The notes beneath the pieces are model-generated. The model had not been told where the DNA came from, searched no databases, and saw only the letters and a list, made by a program, of their open reading frames with translations. A program made the translations under genes and the position numbers. Positions 55,960-64,000 of a stretch of DNA of 64,000 nt are shown here, piece by piece (position 1 is the stretch's first letter; every line of letters begins with the position of its first letter). Source of the stretch: Fibrobacter sp. UWB11 (lineage in GTDB: Bacteria > Fibrobacterota > Fibrobacteria > Fibrobacterales > Fibrobacteraceae); contig NZ_FSRT01000001.1 of NCBI RefSeq assembly GCF_900143015.1, positions 558,001 to 622,000 of the forward strand, read 5' to 3'.

Positions 55960-56469
55960 AGTGGGTCAAATTTAGTAAAGTCGGAAGTAGGAAGTAGGCG
56001 GTAGGAAGAAAATGTGAGTGAAAAAGCTTGTAACTGAGTCATTCTGAGCGGAGCCAGTAAGGCGAAGTCGAAGAATCTATAAAACTTAGGAATGTTGGTG
56101 AAAATGCTTGTAATGACGTCATCCTGAATGTGAAGCGTGAAGGATCCAGTAAATTTTATATGGGGAGGGAGAAGCCTCTCCCTCGCTTCAGCCCCGGCTT
56201 TCAAGTGCGAATGCTGTATGTCATGCCCGTCTCCGAACGGGCACCTCCATTTTTTTGCAAAAAATGAATCTGCGCTGGGGCTTCCGCTACCCTCTCTAGC
56301 GGGCTTCAGACGCCAGCCCGCAATGCCTGGCTTACGCCGCCTTCGATAGTTCCTTTAGAAACGTTTGATCCGATCTTATCCTTTCATGCGTCGGTAGTTG
56401 TCGCATTGCGGTCGTATATTTTCCTATAGAATTTAATGGAGACAACCATTTTTGCAAACTATAGGAAAA
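55960..56469. other. Repeat-rich intergenic region between ffh and the accessory genes
   Basis: No gene. It contains: the ffh promoter on the minus strand (TAAATTTG, 55967-55974, with CTACTT 17 bp upstream in a heptad tract 55980-56008); two GTCATYCTGA-type REP units (56038-56083, 56117-56152); a perfect hairpin GAGGGAGA/TCTCCCTC (56165-56184); a GTGCCCG-type palindrome (56219-56248); and the promoter-like motif at 56395-56420. Confidence 0.7.
56395..56420 (+). promoter_or_regulatory. Shared accessory promoter motif, copy 1
   Basis: TAGTTGTCGCA (56395-56405), then TATATT (56415-56420). Seventeen bases (from TTGTCG) precede the -10 box, exactly as in copies 2 and 3. Confidence 0.65.
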
Positions 56470-57225
56470 ATGAGAAGTAAACATTTTAAAGAACGTGCCT
56501 TTGAGCAGGTGGAGTACAATTACTGGAAAAAACTGGTGGGCGAGATTCTTGTTCCCGGAGAGCCAGGGAGTTACCCTTCCGAAGGGGAAATCCTTAGCGC
56601 CTATAATGAGATGTCGGCTCGGCATCCGGAATGCAAGTGCAAAATATTGAAAGCGAAAAATCTAGGCCAACCTAAGCCGAGTTCGGAATGTTTGTTTCAA
56701 AGGGGGGATAAAATCAGTGGAATCTGGATAATTCGGCAGATGGGGTCTACAGATGACGTGCTTGAATTTTTTATGAGTTCTGCACAACTTTATGTGAGTC
56801 TTAAGCATAAGGGCTTACCATCGATTTTTGTGCGGTCTGCGACCTGTAACCTGCAGCAGACTATGAAAAATTTTGAGGACTTTATCGACAACTACTTACT
56901 TCATCTTGTGGGCCTTGAACAGGAGAAAATAGAATTTGAAAAGATGCTCAAAATCGAAAAAATGGCAAAATTAAGCATAAGAACGGGCGTTTCTCAGGTC
57001 TTGTCCTCATTGAGTTACGAATGGAATTTGGAGGACAAGGGGGAATGTTTTGCTCTACGGATTGGACTTGGAAAGAAAAAACTTGTTGAAATGTCGCTAA
57101 ACGATAAAAATTTCACTAAGAGAATCCCTGCTATACCCGAAATGCTAAAAAACATTGAAGGACTGCTAAAAATAATGCCGTTTCCGGTGGACATTTCAAT
57201 GACAAAGGAACTCTTAAAACTATAG
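56470..57225 (+). CDS. Unknown soluble protein upstream of MoxR-type ATPase
   Basis: 251 aa, start chosen at ATG 56470 behind AGGA (an in-frame TTG at 56452 is less likely). No family recognised. It is mixed alpha/beta: the middle (LFQRGDKISGIWIIRQMGST, AQLYVSLKHKGLPSIFV) alternates strands and helices, and the last 90 residues (SIRTGVSQVLSSLSYEWNLE, GECFALRIGLGKKKLVEMSL) faintly resemble CesT/YbjN-type chaperone folds, which is only an impression. The ATPase gene begins 8 bases after its stop, so it belongs to the same operon. Confidence 0.7.
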   Translation: MRSKHFKERAFEQVEYNYWKKLVGEILVPGEPGSYPSEGEILSAYNEMSARHPECKCKILKAKNLGQPKPSSECLFQRGDKISGIWIIRQMGSTDDVLEFFMSSAQLYVSLKHKGLPSIFVRSATCNLQQTMKNFEDFIDNYLLHLVGLEQEKIEFEKMLKIEKMAKLSIRTGVSQVLSSLSYEWNLEDKGECFALRIGLGKKKLVEMSLNDKNFTKRIPAIPEMLKNIEGLLKIMPFPVDISMTKELLKL

Positions 57226-57233
57226 AGGTATGT

Positions 57234-58304
57234 ATGTCGGTAAGGATCAATGCGCGGGAATTGGAAAGTTTGTTGGCTGCGACTCCCGCATCGCAGAACA
57301 TTATGCTCACGGGCAAACACGGAATCGGCAAGTCGCAGATTCTGGAGAAGTTCTTTACAGCCCGCGGCGAGCGTGTGGTGATTCTGTTCTTGGGGCAGAT
57401 GAGTGATCCGGGTGACTTGATTGGGCTTCCGCGGCTTGACGAGACAACCGGAAAGACTCTGTTTATGCCGCCTTACTGGTTTCCGACCGATGGCAAGCCA
57501 GTGGTGCTGTTTTTGGATGAACTGAACCGCGCCCGCCCTGAGGTGTTGCAGACAATCATGGACTTGACGCTGAATCGTACACTTGCGGGCCGAAAGTTAC
57601 CCGAAGGTTCTCGTGTGATTAGTGCGGTGAACGATGGTGAGGAATACCAGTTGACCGATTTGGATCCGGCGCTCGTGAGCCGTTTTAATATCTACGAATT
57701 CAAGCCCACTACGCAGGAATGGTTGCTGTGGGCGGCGAAGGCGGGGCTCGATTCTCGCGTAATAGACTTTATTTCGGAAAATCCAGAAATGCTCGATGGG
57801 GCCGCCTTTACTCGCGAAGATCAAGGACTTGAAAAATCACCTGACCGCCGCGGATGGGAACGAGTATCGAATGTGCTGCAGACGAACGAGGTGACGCCGC
57901 TTTTAAAGATTGTAATTGCGGGTATTGTCGGCATGCCTGCAGCAACCAAGTTCTTTGCGACAATCAACCAAAAACGTTTGCCTAGCGCAAAGGAAATTTT
58001 GCTCGGCGATTTCGCAAAGTTGCAAACAGCGCTCAAGAAATGCTCAACGCCGGAACTTGCCTCAGTGAACGAATCGATTCTTCGCTTTATCGAGACGAAG
58101 AGTTATGATGAGAAGGATGATGCGAAGGTATCGAAGAACGTTGCTGCATATTTTGAATTCCTTTCGGGTGAAAATTTTCGCGAGGCGCAGGCTCATTTTG
58201 CGAACCTGTATTCTTCTTCGCTGTACCCGTCGACGATGACATTTGTGATTATGCAGTGCCCGGATTTGTATAAGAAGATTACGGCATTTGTTAAGTCAAT
58301 TTAA
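57234..58304 (+). CDS. MoxR-type AAA+ ATPase
   Basis: 356 aa. Walker A GKHGIGKSQ (residues about 27-35), Walker B VVLFLDELNRA (about 95), sensor-1 region SRVISAVNDG and the Arg-containing LDPALVSRFNIYEF. This arrangement is the MoxR clade, chaperone-like ATPases that act on VWA-domain partners. The C-terminal 150 residues are helical and not recognised. An upstream unknown gene and a VWA protein gene 59 bases downstream complete the set. RBS AGAGG precedes the start. Confidence 0.88.
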   Translation: MSVRINARELESLLAATPASQNIMLTGKHGIGKSQILEKFFTARGERVVILFLGQMSDPGDLIGLPRLDETTGKTLFMPPYWFPTDGKPVVLFLDELNRARPEVLQTIMDLTLNRTLAGRKLPEGSRVISAVNDGEEYQLTDLDPALVSRFNIYEFKPTTQEWLLWAAKAGLDSRVIDFISENPEMLDGAAFTREDQGLEKSPDRRGWERVSNVLQTNEVTPLLKIVIAGIVGMPAATKFFATINQKRLPSAKEILLGDFAKLQTALKKCSTPELASVNESILRFIETKSYDEKDDAKVSKNVAAYFEFLSGENFREAQAHFANLYSSSLYPSTMTFVIMQCPDLYKKITAFVKSI

Positions 58305-58363
58305 GACTGTCATCTTGGAGCGTAGCGATAGGATTCAGTTAAGATGAGTATAGAAGGACTGGG

Positions 58364-59635
58364 GTGAATGTTTTAAATATGGATTGTATAGATAGAATAA
58401 AGAAAATTGGTGAAAGGTGGTTCCTGACGGAGCCTCTGTTGTTTGCTGTATATTGCAGTCACGAGTTTTGTGAGAATGATTCGCTTGATGTGGCGATGCG
58501 AACCGGAAACAGAAAGGTCGAATTTTCTCCGAAGGTTTTGCTAAATGTGTCTGATATTGTGTTGGCGGAATTCCTAAAAGTCGAAATATTCCGCATTCTG
58601 CTCAAACACCCGTATCAGCGACAACCTCCGTTTGCCGAAAAATCGTTGCTTACGTGGGCGAGCAATATCACAATTGCCGATGTGTATGATTTACCGCAAT
58701 CTGTCAAAAAACAGATGAGTGGCACGGAATTGAAATTGCCCCAAGGGTTGTGTTTCGAGGAATACTATAACCTGCTCAAACAAGTGGCAATGCCGGCGGG
58801 CGGGGTGGGGGACAAGTCGGACGATATGCCGGTTGGCGAATCGCAACAAATGGGTGGAGAATCAGGGCTGGGAGGCAGCGGTTCTAAAAGTAATGTTGGT
58901 GGCCCTCGCAATACACAAGAAAATGTCGATGCTCAAGAAAAACGGGATACGCAAATTTCGGAGCTTTGGGATGAAGATGAAGAAGCCTGTTGCGACATAA
59001 ATGGATATATCGAAGTTGCCGAAGCGAGCAACAACTGGGGCTCTATTTCGGGCAAACTGCAAGGCATCATCAAGGCGAGCCTGAAAGTAGACATGGACTA
59101 TCGCAAAATGTTGAGCCTGTTCAAAACCTCGATCATTTCGAGTAAGCGTCGCCTTACGCGTATGCGCCCGAATCGCCGTTTCGGTTTTGATGCCATGGGT
59201 AGTCGCTACGAACTTTCGACAAACTTGCTGATTGCAGTTGATGTTAGCGGCTCTGTAACCGACAAAAGTCTATCCTTTTTTTTCTCGGTGATTAATAGGC
59301 TCTTCAAATACGGCGTCGAAAAATTAGATGTATTGCAGTTCGATGCCAAAATTCAAGGTGAACCGGAACCGTTAAAAAATGCGCGCAAGACTGTCAAAAT
59401 AATGGGCCGTGGTGGTACGAATTTTCAGCCTGCTGCTGACTATTTCTGCACACATCCCGAATATGACGGACTCATCTACTTTACCGATGGCTTCGCTCCG
59501 GTGCCAAAGTTCAACACCAAGCGCCCCATCGATGTACTGTGGGTTTTATGTGGAAAATCCGCCTACGACCAAAACGCAGAGCGAATTAAAAAATTGAAAC
59601 GGAACCGTGTCACATACATTCCTAAAAGAGAATGA
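58364..59635 (+). CDS. DUF2201/VWA-like metallopeptidase-type protein
   Basis: About 423 aa. GTG 58364 follows AAGGA; ATG 58379 (MDCIDRIKK) is an alternative. Residues about 20-130 resemble the N-terminal putative metallopeptidase region of DUF2201, but the zinc-site helix reads EIFRILLKHPY instead of HExxH, so activity is doubtful. A Gly/Ser/Asp-rich linker (about 150-200) leads to a VWA-like domain: LLIAVDVSGSVTDKS is the metal-binding DxSxS site, with GRGGTNFQPAADYF and LIYFTDGFAP as the other two loops. It is the expected partner of the MoxR ATPase. Such pairs assemble or remodel protein complexes; the target here is unknown. Confidence 0.82.
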   Translation: MNVLNMDCIDRIKKIGERWFLTEPLLFAVYCSHEFCENDSLDVAMRTGNRKVEFSPKVLLNVSDIVLAEFLKVEIFRILLKHPYQRQPPFAEKSLLTWASNITIADVYDLPQSVKKQMSGTELKLPQGLCFEEYYNLLKQVAMPAGGVGDKSDDMPVGESQQMGGESGLGGSGSKSNVGGPRNTQENVDAQEKRDTQISELWDEDEEACCDINGYIEVAEASNNWGSISGKLQGIIKASLKVDMDYRKMLSLFKTSIISSKRRLTRMRPNRRFGFDAMGSRYELSTNLLIAVDVSGSVTDKSLSFFFSVINRLFKYGVEKLDVLQFDAKIQGEPEPLKNARKTVKIMGRGGTNFQPAADYFCTHPEYDGLIYFTDGFAPVPKFNTKRPIDVLWVLCGKSAYDQNAERIKKLKRNRVTYIPKRE

Positions 59636-59653
59636 TGACTGAAAAGAAATTGA

Positions 59654-60340
59654 TTAAATCTCCATAAAATAGTAACGATATGTTGGATCGTTCGATATAA
59701 ACTTCCACTTAATTTTTTGAGTTAGTTGTTGATTTAATGTTGTAATGTCATCCTTTTTCCCTGTAGGCTTTCCAATATCTTTAGCTGAAGGGATTATTTC
59801 TTCTGCTTGTATTTCGTCTTTTGAAGAAATGTTTGTTTCTTTACTTCTGAAATATTTGTAGATGTCTTTTTCTTCTTCACCTTTTTTCGGTTCTAATTTT
59901 GTGAAGAAATTTAGATCATCAACAATTGTTAAAACGAATGTCCTTGCATAATGTTTTTTTTCTTTCACTTGTTGCATAAATTTGATGTCCTTTATAAAGG
60001 AGTACATTTGTTCTGGATATTGTTTATTTCTAGGGAACTTTAATTCAATGGCGTAAATTTCATCTATATCCTTAACTTCTTTTTTATTATTTTTCTTATA
60101 GACAAAAATATCCATTTCTGTTTTTTTCCATTTTTCTTTTTCAAAAACTCCCCAAAGTTTCTTTGCGTTTCGTTCAAATTGAACTTTGTAGTTCTCTCCA
60201 AGTTTTTCTCGAATATATATTCCTAGTTCATGCTGCAAGGAAAATTCGTTATATATATCATAATCCTTATTATTGGGAGTTTCTAATTTTTTGAGCAATT
60301 CCTTGTCTAAGAAATCTTTAATTATTTCTTTTATATCCAT
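59654..60340 (-). CDS. Predicted PD-(D/E)xK-like nuclease fold protein
   Basis: 228 aa, start MDIKEIIKDF at 60340 with AAGGA 9 bases before it. Clearly more AT-rich than its neighbours and on the opposite strand. KTEMDIFVYKK followed about 18 residues later by IYAIELKFPRN gives the D...ExK spacing of restriction-endonuclease-like folds, and QMYSFIKDIKFMQQV resembles the helix after it. The N-terminal YNEFSLQHELGIYIREKL also fits such proteins. No methylase or specificity gene is near. It could be a defence or repair nuclease; likely acquired separately. Confidence 0.55.
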   Translation of the reverse strand: MDIKEIIKDFLDKELLKKLETPNNKDYDIYNEFSLQHELGIYIREKLGENYKVQFERNAKKLWGVFEKEKWKKTEMDIFVYKKNNKKEVKDIDEIYAIELKFPRNKQYPEQMYSFIKDIKFMQQVKEKKHYARTFVLTIVDDLNFFTKLEPKKGEEEKDIYKYFRSKETNISSKDEIQAEEIIPSAKDIGKPTGKKDDITTLNQQLTQKIKWKFISNDPTYRYYFMEI

Positions 60341-60478
60341 TTTTATTTCCTTCTTGCCATAATCATGGTAATTAAACATTTTTCTCCATAAATATACTCC
60401 TAAAATGTCGAAATAGCCCATTTTTTAGAGAATTCGCATCTTTGGGCGGTTTTTAAGCGGACTCCATTTAAGTGTCTG

Positions 60479-60504
60479 TAGTTGTCGCATGTGAGCTGTA
60501 TATT
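60479..60504 (+). promoter_or_regulatory. Shared accessory promoter motif, copy 2
   Basis: TAGTTGTCGCA (60479-60489), then TATATT (60499-60504), 24 bases before the start codon of the next gene. Confidence 0.7.
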
Positions 60505-60528
60505 TATAAGCAAATAAAGGAGTTCTTT

Positions 60529-61788
60529 ATGATCGAAGAAAAAATGGCCGAAGAAGAAATGAACAAGGCTTTCCGCTACTATAATTACGTGCGAGAGTTT
60601 TACGGTTATTTGTGCGATTCGCTGGACTTGGTTTTTGAAGATGATTGCTGTGAATTTGACCCAGCATATGCTCCCGCTGAAAAGGAATTCCCTCCTGCAG
60701 AGGGAATAGATGAAAATTCTACCGCCAAGGCGATTGCGCTTGATAAAATGGCGCGGGCTATTCGAGCCTACGAAACAATGCGGACTATTGTTGCGGTGCT
60801 TGACAAAGATGGCGTGGAGAAGTCCGCGAATAATCGCGGAATGATGCAGGATCCCCATAAGTTTGCGCTTACAAGTATTGGGGAGTATTTTCCTACGACA
60901 ACGCTATGGCGCGAATTTGAAGAACCTGCGCAAAAACGGCTTGGAAAATATGCGGATGATGCTCAAAGTGCGATTATGTTGATGGAACCGCTATCACTTG
61001 AATCTGCAATTCACAATATTTTCGCAGAGCAGAAAGAATGCCTCGAAAAATTTTTACCGCAAAAAATTGAGGAATTGAAAAAGTTGCAGGCTGAGATGGA
61101 ATCCTTCTTTGATGAAAAAAATGAAAATCCGCAGAATCTCCACAGGCGGCAATTTAAATACGAAGATCGCAGAAGCCAGGAATACATCAATAGTATAATG
61201 GAAAGCCTAATCAAGGATGATGGCTGGATTGGTGCGCGAAAGAAATGCAAACTTGAAGAAAAACTTCATCAAGATATGCAGCTGTTGGCACGGAAGGCCT
61301 TGGCCAATGCCCGCTTTGAACACCGCAAAGAAAATATTGATAAACTGTTGCTGCTGAACAAACGGCTCCATGAACTGCAAGATGAATGTGCAAAAGTCAC
61401 CTTCGATATGTACAGGGACATGAGGGCTCTCATGGCGCAAGGCAAGTCGTATTACAAGACTTTTGGCATTGAGTCGTTTATTGTGTATGAATCAGAAGAG
61501 GACTGGGAGGGCGACGTTTCCGGTCTTTACGATTCCTACGATAGGGCGAATCGTTTTCAGGTAAATCTCAATGACGCTCCCGGCAAGGAACCCGCCGATT
61601 ACAAGGATTTGAACGCCTGGCACGAGGAACTGAGCTGGAACATCGAGGGGCTTGACCTGCCTGAATTCAAGGACGAATATATCTGCTTTGCGATGCACAA
61701 GTTCTTTGCCGATGGCAGTTACTCCCTCGAAGATGCCATGCGCATGAAATTAGAGGAATTTTATGTCCACACCGAGATTCATATTTAG
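60529..61788 (+). CDS. Unknown helical protein
   Basis: 419 aa, start MIEEKMAEEEMNKAF at 60529 with AAAGGAG 6 bases upstream. No family recognised. The N-terminal 60 residues and residues about 150-310 are strongly helical and charged (PQKIEELKKLQAEMESFF, RKENIDKLLLLNKRLHELQD), probably coiled coil; the last 90 residues (NLNDAPGKEPADYKDLNAWHEELSWNIEG... HKFFADGSYSLEDAMRMKLE) look globular. No signal peptide. It shares a promoter motif with the operon at 56470, suggesting joint regulation. Confidence 0.7.
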   Translation: MIEEKMAEEEMNKAFRYYNYVREFYGYLCDSLDLVFEDDCCEFDPAYAPAEKEFPPAEGIDENSTAKAIALDKMARAIRAYETMRTIVAVLDKDGVEKSANNRGMMQDPHKFALTSIGEYFPTTTLWREFEEPAQKRLGKYADDAQSAIMLMEPLSLESAIHNIFAEQKECLEKFLPQKIEELKKLQAEMESFFDEKNENPQNLHRRQFKYEDRRSQEYINSIMESLIKDDGWIGARKKCKLEEKLHQDMQLLARKALANARFEHRKENIDKLLLLNKRLHELQDECAKVTFDMYRDMRALMAQGKSYYKTFGIESFIVYESEEDWEGDVSGLYDSYDRANRFQVNLNDAPGKEPADYKDLNAWHEELSWNIEGLDLPEFKDEYICFAMHKFFADGSYSLEDAMRMKLEEFYVHTEIHI

Positions 61789-61844
61789 GGATTCGTGTTG
61801 ATAGTGTCAGATGTATGGTTAAGACGATTTTTTTAATACGTCTG

Positions 61845-61870
61845 TATTTGTCGTGTGCTGGGGCTAGATT
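61845..61870 (+). promoter_or_regulatory. Shared accessory promoter motif, copy 3
   Basis: TATTTGTCGTG (61845-61855), then TAGATT (61865-61870). Same spacing as copies 1 and 2, sequence slightly weaker. Confidence 0.6.
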
Positions 61871-61894: not shown

Positions 61895-62356
61895 ATGAGT
61901 AGAACAGAAAAAGTCCATACGCATAGATGCCCATGCGTGCGCTATATTGATGCTAGCTGTCAAGCTAAGGCTAAAGCAGTTAGATCTGCCGCCAAAAATG
62001 AAATCAGAAAGATGCAGGATCCCGATGATTTAGATTTTTTTCTCGAAAATAGCCGTCGAGGTCGTCTTGGGCGCACCTATAGCGCGGGGTATCTTGATCC
62101 CACCGTAAGTGAAGCGGATTATTTAAAGAAGGTCTTGTCCGTCAAACAATCTGTGGCGAATGGGACTGTGCCGTGGGACACTTGTCTGTTTGCTAGTAAC
62201 GCTTTTCATAAAGATGTCCTAAATCGTGTAAAACAGAAGGACCCAACATTCAAAGGCGACAGAAATCAAGCGATGTTGTTGCTTTCTAACGAAGAATTGG
62301 CGGAATGTGTTCATCGTTTTTATGCGAGTAAAGGACTCAAGGGTCGTAAACGGTAA
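61895..62356 (+). CDS. Unknown small basic protein
   Basis: 153 aa, start behind AGGAG. An N-terminal HRCPCVRYIDASCQ segment has three Cys and a His, possibly a metal site. The rest is mixed and basic (RRGRLGRTYSAGYLDPT..., VHRFYASKGLKGRKR). I recognise no family. It follows the third copy of the shared promoter motif. The 227 bases after its stop are AT-rich and show no convincing gene. Confidence 0.65.
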   Translation: MSRTEKVHTHRCPCVRYIDASCQAKAKAVRSAAKNEIRKMQDPDDLDFFLENSRRGRLGRTYSAGYLDPTVSEADYLKKVLSVKQSVANGTVPWDTCLFASNAFHKDVLNRVKQKDPTFKGDRNQAMLLLSNEELAECVHRFYASKGLKGRKR

Positions 62357-62583: not shown

Positions 62584-63378
62584 ATGGCTAAAAGAAATCA
62601 AGAAGCGAAAAAGCAGAAAACTATAAAATATGGAACAGAAAAAGCTAAAGAATATCTTGATACGATTGATTGTCTTCGAAAGAATAGGCCTCGAATTGAA
62701 GAAAAAGAAAGACAATCAGACATTCTGTTTATAACAGGATGCACGAGCGATAAAGATGGTCGCGATGGTGAATTGCCTGCTTTTGAACGATATGTTGGAG
62801 GTGCTTCTGTTGGAATACTCAAATTTTTTTCCAAATTCGTTGAAGAAAAAAAACGCCCTTTTGACCTATACGTTCTATCTGCGGGCTATGGGTTTATTCC
62901 TGCCGAAGCTGATATTCAAAAATATGACATTTCGTTTAACAATGTTGATGCTAAATTGCGTAGCGAAATGGCTCAAAGCCGGCATTTGAACTTGAGTGCA
63001 GATTTTCGATCACTCCTTGAAAAAAAATACAAATTGATTATTTTGCGTTTGGGGCCTAAATACATTGATGCTCTTAATAAAGCCGTAAAAAATGATAATG
63101 TGAAATTTTACGAACTCCCTAACGAAACACATGTTTTTTACTTAAAACCCAAATCTACGGACCAGATTTTGTTTCAGGCGAAATCAACACAAACTCATTC
63201 CATTAAGCCATTAGAAATTTACGGCTCAGAAGTAAAAAAAATATCGGGTAGCAAACTCCTCAATGATGCTCAGGATTCATTATGGTGCAAATTCTTTGAT
63301 AAAAACCAATGCATGTCTACGGATGAAATTATCCAAAAAATCAACGATGCAAAAAACGTGGAGGATCTATTGAAATGA
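62584..63378 (+). CDS. DUF6884-like protein
   Basis: 264 aa, AT-rich. After a Lys-rich N-terminus, residues about 42-185 have FITGCTSDKDG, LPAFERYVGG, FDLYVLSAGYGFIPAEADIQKYD and LIILRLGPKYIDAL. A Cys-containing first strand, the LSAxYGFIPxxxxIxxYD loop and the following strands match the DUF6884 type as I recall it. Its function is not established. The C-terminal 70 residues are separate. GAGAGG precedes the start. It overlaps the next gene by ATGA, so the two proteins are coupled. Confidence 0.6.
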   Translation: MAKRNQEAKKQKTIKYGTEKAKEYLDTIDCLRKNRPRIEEKERQSDILFITGCTSDKDGRDGELPAFERYVGGASVGILKFFSKFVEEKKRPFDLYVLSAGYGFIPAEADIQKYDISFNNVDAKLRSEMAQSRHLNLSADFRSLLEKKYKLIILRLGPKYIDALNKAVKNDNVKFYELPNETHVFYLKPKSTDQILFQAKSTQTHSIKPLEIYGSEVKKISGSKLLNDAQDSLWCKFFDKNQCMSTDEIIQKINDAKNVEDLLK

Positions 63379-64000
63379 ATACAGAAAAGAAAGACACCAA
63401 GGAGCTTTGCTTGAAAATTCATGAGTTTTTTAGTAAGCTTCCAAAATACAAAATGGCGGACATAAAAATCGCCCAGCAAAATAACAGGGGTATTATTGGT
63501 GGAGTTTACGTTATGTTCGAGGAGGGGGAAGACTATCATGGCTATTCACGGATTACCCGCATTGGGACCCATCAAGCGGATAAAAAAACTGCTCCGGACA
63601 TTCCTGATAAAAGCCAATCTGTATGGAAAAGAATGATGCAGCATTATGGCAATATGAAAAGTTTATTAGGAAGAAAGGATGGAAGCATCTTTAGAAAAAA
63701 CATAGGCATTGCTATGTTGCAAAAAAGTAGGGATTCATACATTGAAGCGTGGCTGTTTGATCGCACTTCTCGTGCCAATAGAGAAAAATATGATTCCGAC
63801 AAATCTAAAGTTCCTTACAATAAAGAAAAACAAGATAAAATTGAGGCGAAAGTAAGCGATTATATACGCAATAAAATCAGTTTTGTTGTTATTCCCATCA
63901 ATAATCGAAAAAAGAGACATGATTTTGAATATGGGTTGATTTCGGCGATTTGCCAAGCTTCTGATTTTTATCCTAGCAAAAATTGGCTTGGAAACTTTAA
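63375..64000 (+). CDS. GIY-YIG-like nuclease domain protein, cut by window end
   Basis: At least 208 aa; no stop before the edge. GGVYVMFEEGED...SRITRIGTHQ matches the first strands of GIY-YIG nucleases, with GVYVMF in the place of the GIY motif and a distal Arg-rich strand. It continues with VWKRMMQHYG, SIFRKNIGIAML, a YIRNKISFVVIPI strand and FEYGLISAI, where the Glu could be the metal ligand. This version, with an FRKxIG helix, is typical of uncharacterised bacterial GIY-YIG proteins. It starts inside the stop of the DUF6884-like gene. Confidence 0.65.
   Translation, partial: MNTEKKDTKELCLKIHEFFSKLPKYKMADIKIAQQNNRGIIGGVYVMFEEGEDYHGYSRITRIGTHQADKKTAPDIPDKSQSVWKRMMQHYGNMKSLLGRKDGSIFRKNIGIAMLQKSRDSYIEAWLFDRTSRANREKYDSDKSKVPYNKEKQDKIEAKVSDYIRNKISFVVIPINNRKKRHDFEYGLISAICQASDFYPSKNWLGNF

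Follow-up and report, generated by a model that had tools for sequence, protein, structure and literature searches.

A MoxR–VWA operon with an unnamed third-component family as candidate core of a proposed WYL-controlled defence regulon in Fibrobacter sp. UWB11

The DNA analyzed here, called the window in the following, is a stretch of 64,000 nucleotides from the rumen-type bacterium Fibrobacter sp. UWB11 (assembly GCF_900143015.1, contig NZ_FSRT01000001.1, positions 558,001 to 622,000). Near its end it carries a 251-residue protein of no named family (gene A), a MoxR-type ATPase (gene B) and a VWA co-chaperone (gene C), followed by genes designated D to H. We report that A, B and C form one conserved operon and that the C-terminal domain of A, termed PD, accompanies MoxR in three phyla. 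With moderate confidence we read the operon as the core of a regulon of several operons that would be repressed by a WYL regulator, inducible, and devoted to defence or to a defence-like stress response; with this core, the known MoxR–VWA ternary systems would gain a new class. As judged from sequence, the system is probably inducible, directed against phages and as yet unnamed.

The three core genes are co-directional, with intergenic gaps of 8 and 74 bp (Table 1). The original prediction had placed a MoxR ATPase, a DUF2201/VWA protein and a 251-residue protein in one run, and all three genes were confirmed at their positions. In profile scans of the family libraries gene B matched AAA_5 (2.5e-10) and PHROG_1297 (5e-53), while gene C matched DUF2201 (6.7e-11) and DUF2201_N (6.6e-7). 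Both Walker motifs, GKHGIGKS and LFLDELN, are invariant in the MoxR alignment (A2). The metal ion-dependent adhesion site (MIDAS) of gene C reads DVSGS and is intact, and the DxSxS pattern is present in 114 of 114 homologues. The start of gene C was picked from the N-terminus that is conserved in alignment A3. Gene A had been described as a partner of no recognized family, as had the 419-residue gene E farther downstream, and neither gave a significant match in Pfam, NCBIfam, PADLOC or PHROGs. The further question whether such proteins belong to ordinary housekeeping families was answered by the library scans, which included 38 PD members and returned no housekeeping match.

To collect related loci the MoxR protein was used as bait, yielding 80 bacterial loci (Fibrobacter, Treponema, Elusimicrobia, Bacteroidales) at 55–92% identity and 45 viral contigs. 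VWA adjoins MoxR in 80 of 82 loci, and PD, defined as the C-terminal approximately 120 residues of A and extended by iterated hidden Markov models, is present in 43 of the 82, across phyla. The iterated search assembled 111 PD proteins in the MoxR–VWA loci. In profile–profile comparison PD members reached 96.7–100% probability and all other neighbour families at most 1.5%. PD is an unnamed protein family, present beside MoxR–VWA in Fibrobacter, Treponema, Bacteroidales and Elusimicrobia. The k5 proteins (Bacteroidaceae, 400–560 residues, directly upstream of MoxR) had been considered as PD relatives and were ruled out by profile comparison. None of the 38 members gave a convincing Pfam or NCBIfam match; a distant homology to VMAP or iSTAND is conceivable. 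The N-terminal regions of PD proteins vary, and as many as four PD genes can follow one another in tandem (L124). The distance between a PD gene and MoxR is often no more than 2–3 kb; PD genes are found directly upstream of MoxR in many Treponema and Bacteroidales loci and follow VWA in Elusimicrobia.

The AlphaFold2 model of A (predicted local distance difference test, pLDDT, 89.2; predicted template-modelling score 0.77) consists of an N-terminal alpha/beta half, a long helix (142–179) and a C-terminal beta-beta-beta-alpha half. A Foldseek search against the PDB with this model gave a best E-value of 0.08 with inconsistent hits, and the best Z in VIA, 7.5, stays below the level taken to mean something beyond a common arrangement. 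When PDB sequences were searched with profiles of the PD-family alignments A4 and A7, only designed repeats and weak chance matches came back.

A lack of co-occurrence in other genomes had been named at the outset as a possible refutation, but the genes do occur together in three taxa. Of 150 Fibrobacterota genomes, 18 contain A, 17 give a strong match to B and 16 a high-identity match to C; MoxR is present in 16 of the 18 PD genomes (Fisher p = 2e-18). In 98 Treponema genomes, 34 of which have MoxR, it is present in 13 of 15 PD genomes (p = 1e-5). Nine of 178 genomes sampled from the order Bacteroidales have MoxR, and all eight PD genomes are among these (p = 4e-13). The order A–B–C is kept across the neighbourhoods of 20 Fibrobacter loci, with A directly preceding MoxR in most, and a second, more divergent A paralogue often follows the three genes. 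Gene B is 78–92% identical within Fibrobacter and 55–71% identical in other phyla. Over the same 11 loci the proteins share on average 89% (B), 76% (C) and 51% (A) identity with those of the window, and on account of this lowest value we regard A as the fastest-evolving part. Despite its faster divergence the distance matrices of A, B and C correlate.

A further hint towards a common system arises from the promoters. The motif seen earlier before A and E turned out to be a 21-bp palindrome, ATGCGWC-N7-GWCGCAT, which lies over the −35 box and is common to A, E and F; a −10 element (TATATTT or TAGATTT) follows 8–9 bp past it. Past the window the palindrome precedes a gene of 82 residues, a second EC gene (EC2) and the gene of a WYL regulator, and it stands upstream of A/PD genes in loci L072–L082 as well. 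If up to three mismatches are allowed, the window alone holds 7 sites at 7.9 expected, which is not above chance. In the 20 related Fibrobacter loci (353 kb) 24 sites with at most one mismatch were counted, compared to none in 400 kb of background taken from stretches elsewhere in the window's own genome; with at most two mismatches the counts are 44 and 6. A −10-like element lies within 24 nt of 21 of the 24 sites, compared to 5% of random positions. The genes preceded by the palindrome in the Fibrobacter loci are PD, WYL, EC, EN-DnaB, k7 and AAA. Bacteroidales sites are located before MoxR (L123, L124), PD (L120) and WYL (L134). In Treponema the same 7-7-7 geometry recurs as GACTATC-N7-GATAGTC, approximately 40 bp before WYL, PD, MoxR and several other genes; an operator of the form ACTATCAT-N-ATGATAGT had been tried there and was rejected, the 7-7-7 form being fitted instead.

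The palindrome is likely the operator of the WYL regulator encoded just outside the window. In bacteriophage exclusion (BREX) defence islands, WYL regulators act as repressors that bind to inverted repeats (PMC9122601), and it is for this reason that we assume repression by the WYL protein here. Since the palindrome delimits the member genes objectively, the nameless proteins become testable as one unit.

Gene E was originally said to follow the operon with the same promoter motif. The motif is real, but gene D sits between C and E on the opposite strand, and E is therefore a separate transcription unit. Gene D is a probable PD-(D/E)XK-like nuclease, the motifs EMDIFVY...YAIELK having been judged by eye; among the fetched loci its homologues occur only in two other Fibrobacter PD loci. 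Gene E is a fusion of two parts, EN and EC, and its AlphaFold2 model is poor (mean pLDDT 57). In four Fibrobacter loci (L074, L076, L077, L098) EN is joined to a DnaB_C-like domain with altered P-loop (Pfam DnaB_C 4.9e-46 in L098), whereas EC is a standalone protein elsewhere, including Treponema, Porphyromonas and the viral contig L175. DnaB_C-like genes without EN are present in Treponema and Bacteroidales loci. For gene F no homologue was found in the fetched related loci.

Table 1. Features of the region, in window coordinates.
Feature	Position	Strand	Description
Putative operator of A	56386..56406		ATGCGTC-GGTAGTT-GTCGCAT, 0 mismatches; over −35, −10 TATATTT 9 nt on
Gene A	56470..57225	+	251 aa; N-terminal region and C-terminal PD domain (~residues 124-247)
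Gene B	57234..58304	+	356 aa; MoxR-type AAA+ ATPase; Walker A GKHGIGKS, Walker B LFLDELN
Gene C	58379..59635	+	418 aa, ATG 58379; VWA co-chaperone (DUF2201_N and DUF2201)
Gene D	59654..60379	-	ATG at 60379 or 60340; between C and E
Putative operator of E	60470..60490		2 mismatches; then −10 TATATTT
Gene E	60529..61788	+	419-aa fusion: EN (1-206) and EC (207-419)
Putative operator of F	61836..61856		Weaker, 3 mismatches; −10 TAGATTT
Gene F	61895..62356	+	153 aa; assigned to the regulon by its operator alone
Gene G	62584..63378	+	PDC-M57A-like 1.8e-8 (PADLOC); DUF6884 1.1e-6, just under Pfam cut-off; no operator
Gene H	63375..64000, runs to 64115 past window end	+	PADLOC PDC-M57B 3.1e-54
WYL regulator	66241-67251, past window end		WYL 2.7e-7, WCX 1.2e-6
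AddAB-like pair	67306-73265 (L239:13306-19265), just past window		Relatives in Treponema L233

The operon is located in a defence island that extends to approximately 73.3 kb in window coordinates. Beyond the PDC-M57 genes it contains a metallophosphatase, the WYL gene, an 895-residue PDDEXK_1 protein and a 1090-residue UvrD helicase with PDDEXK, the last two of which have the appearance of an AddAB-like pair. Homologous loci elsewhere carry restriction–modification, GmrSD/SspE-like, DrmC-like PLD and DnaQ-like genes, and in some relatives RecB/RecC-like genes stand directly after C. In three other phyla, too, the set lies within defence islands. The original prediction had pointed out that MoxR–VWA pairs remodel complexes and are also met in loci of defence or conflict. 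The island context supports this view, with an antiviral function as the suggested role.

The following mechanism is proposed for the regulon. In resting cells the WYL regulator would occupy the palindromes over the −35 boxes and keep A–MoxR–VWA, E, F, EC2 and the WYL gene silent until signals from phage or DNA damage lift this repression. The MoxR ring, recruited via the MIDAS of the VWA protein, could then remodel the fast-evolving protein A, which may be the sensor or specificity part, with its C-terminal PD domain as the docking part. The remodelled complex might engage the E/EC proteins, the DnaB-like ATPase, nuclease D and the AddAB-like helicase-nuclease.

Several observations weigh against a defence regulon built around a ternary core. 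No recognized PD was found in 39 of the 82 MoxR–VWA loci (e.g. L122, L135–L137), some of which are short, and the MoxR–VWA pair can therefore work without PD. Conversely, PD proteins without MoxR exist in G050, in G102 and in a second locus of the window's own genome (L087). The link of E to MoxR is weaker than that of A, as 11 of 27 E genomes have MoxR (p = 5e-6), and of the 178 genomes in the Bacteroidales sample only one gave an EC match, a weak one. The palindrome in Treponema is statistically weaker as well: at up to three mismatches 40 sites in 382 kb compare to 25 in 809 kb. Finally, neither Foldseek nor VIA gives A a fold that would name a biochemical role.

Some of these loci deserve a description in their own right. 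The second locus of the window's genome (L087, G000:C1:114000-133000) holds PD, EC, a c10-type protein and WYL and has no MoxR–VWA. In loci of the Paludibacteraceae type (L122, L133, L135–L137, L139) MoxR–VWA stands without PD beside two small proteins, one of them membrane-like, and a Lon-like protease; this could possibly be the ordinary, stable version of the pair. The genome of locus L132 (G164), a Bacteroidia from a dolphin mouth, shows nine PD matches in frames of 400–1000 residues on many contigs.

The content of the homologous loci also allows for a different function of the regulon. Treponema PD loci encode a standalone FlhA cytoplasmic domain (4.8e-71, 3.9e-60), with full-length FlhA elsewhere in each genome, and FlhB_C fused to a PD domain (1.3e-10, 2.7e-13). 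The WYL/MoxR–VWA islands of Treponema (L109–L116, L229–L238) also contain copies of FliG_C, of a type III secretion system (T3SS)-type ATPase and of FliM. In Porphyromonas a 434-residue fragment of DNA polymerase III alpha, comprising the NTPase start and the finger domain, lies beside PD and MoxR–VWA (L150:13205-14509); an FtsK motor piece is found in L145, and DnaB_C occurs alone or fused to EN. The partial copies of FlhA, FlhB, FliG, DnaB and DnaE suggest decoys or dominant-negative parts. WYL-controlled copies of this kind could trap invader proteins directed against these machines, or could jam the motility and replication of the host in the course of an infection, while MoxR–VWA–PD would read or drive the resulting complexes, which we consider rather unlikely. 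A more elaborate form, to us a doubtful one, would have a single WYL switch control the MoxR–VWA–PD core together with soluble pieces of host machines (the flagellar export gate with FlhA/FlhB, the rotor protein FliG, the replicative helicase DnaB, the polymerase DnaE). Every piece would be linked to the remodelling motor by PD, a tag shared by all of them and exemplified by the FlhB_C–PD fusions, and the whole would be a decoy or dominant-negative immune regulon. The position of the Treponema palindrome just upstream of several partial copies would be in agreement with such a role. These partial copies are the strangest of the observations, but they belong to homologous loci and not to the window itself, where E has lost the DnaB-like part; in those Fibrobacter genomes that were checked, no flagellar FlhA turned up. 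Furthermore, the FliM and T3SS-type ATPase copies look nearly whole, N-terminal pieces of FlhA exist too, so that a split second export system is possible, and relatives of FtsK and DnaB are common on mobile DNA. Among the papers searched, none was found to describe the combination of MoxR, FlhA and WYL, and a search on DUF2201 alone gave nothing relevant. If true, the decoys would be a direct bacterial counterpart to the integrated decoys known from immune receptors in plants.

Another explanation is a remodelling chaperone that serves an ordinary complex of the cell and matures a specific enzyme in the manner of RavA–ViaA, NorQ–NorD or CbbQ–CbbO, with PD proteins as clients or adaptors. Known MoxR–VWA pairs do mature specific enzymes or complexes, according to two reports (PMC9976466, PMC3893208), and in some Bacteroidales MoxR–VWA without PD stands beside ordinary genes. 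We nevertheless think this unlikely for the window, as the distribution is patchy (17 of 150 Fibrobacterota genomes), the partners are fast-evolving and tandem-duplicated, the setting is that of WYL and a defence island, and no metabolic neighbour is conserved among the loci. A role as regulated cargo or lysogeny module of a mobile element (a cryptic phage or an integrative element) rather than in host defence is quite improbable: phage homologues of MoxR–VWA (PMC7824862), a viral contig from IMG/VR with MoxR–VWA, PD and EC (L175), ParA-like genes near some Treponema loci and cross-phylum mixing in the tree speak for it, but no integrase or structural genes were seen beside the core in the window, and the components common to three phyla are defence-type genes. 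For the contig L175 itself three origins come into question: a phage, a prophage, or bacterial DNA that was wrongly assigned.

The WYL-controlled defence regulon with its MoxR–VWA–PD core, which we prefer, can be compared to several known systems. With the BrxR-type defence islands (PMC9122601) it shares an island-encoded WYL regulator and inverted repeats near promoters. It differs in that one palindrome is common to many operons (A, E, F, EC2, WYL), in the palindrome geometry (7-7-7 compared to 11-5-11) and in a core of MoxR–VWA rather than BREX. The PDC-M57 system of PADLOC is represented in the same island by the M57A- and M57B-like genes (62584-64115), a separate pair without the palindrome and probably a neighbour rather than a part of the MoxR system.

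A MoxR–vWA pair that includes an N-terminal metallopeptidase is also known from jumbo phages, and a role in virion assembly was proposed for it (PMC7824862). Its ATPase and DUF2201-type vWA are homologous to those reported here (PHROG_1297 and PHROG_1314 matches), whereas PD partners and WYL-type operators are features of the bacterial pairs. The HExxH motif is kept in 33 of 41 viral vWA homologues, and none of the 73 bacterial homologues, gene C included, has it. A branch with full support sets off all bacterial proteins in the tree, along with a few phage sequences that likewise lack HExxH. The phyla are intermixed in the tree, which fits transfer between gut bacteria. A metallopeptidase motif that is intact in phages and absent in bacteria thus links the two forms of this chaperone pair.

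The closest comparison is with the MoxR–vWA ternary conflict systems of Kaur et al. (2020, PMC7159879), for which VMAP, iSTAND, FtsH and beta-propeller classes were described and in which the gene before MoxR codes for a fast-evolving third component. The window shares with them a MoxR AAA+ protein with intact Walker A and B motifs, a vWA protein with MIDAS, the defence context, a third gene upstream of MoxR and a third component that evolves fastest. By analogy of gene order and rate pattern, the pair would work like these published systems. Component A belongs neither with FtsH nor with the beta-propellers, as it has no AAA+ or propeller match and its AlphaFold2 model shows two alpha/beta halves. 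What sets the window apart from the published systems is a third component from the unnamed alpha/beta PD family, a P-loop of canonical sequence (GKHGIGKS and not GXXXTAKS), and a DUF2201-type vWA protein whose N-terminal domain resembles a metallopeptidase but has no HExxH. This vWA protein also lacks the variable C-terminal effector of the VMAP class, the DUF2201 domain ending at residue 398 of 423. The WYL operator regulon and the hosts (Fibrobacter, Treponema, Bacteroidales, Elusimicrobia) are different, too. That the locus may be an undescribed variant had been suggested from the start, and the PD family as third component argues for a class of its own, although a distant kinship with VMAP or iSTAND is conceivable. 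The MoxR–vWA ternary systems would then comprise five classes, the fifth having a new third-component family that is present in at least four phyla, mostly in gut bacteria.

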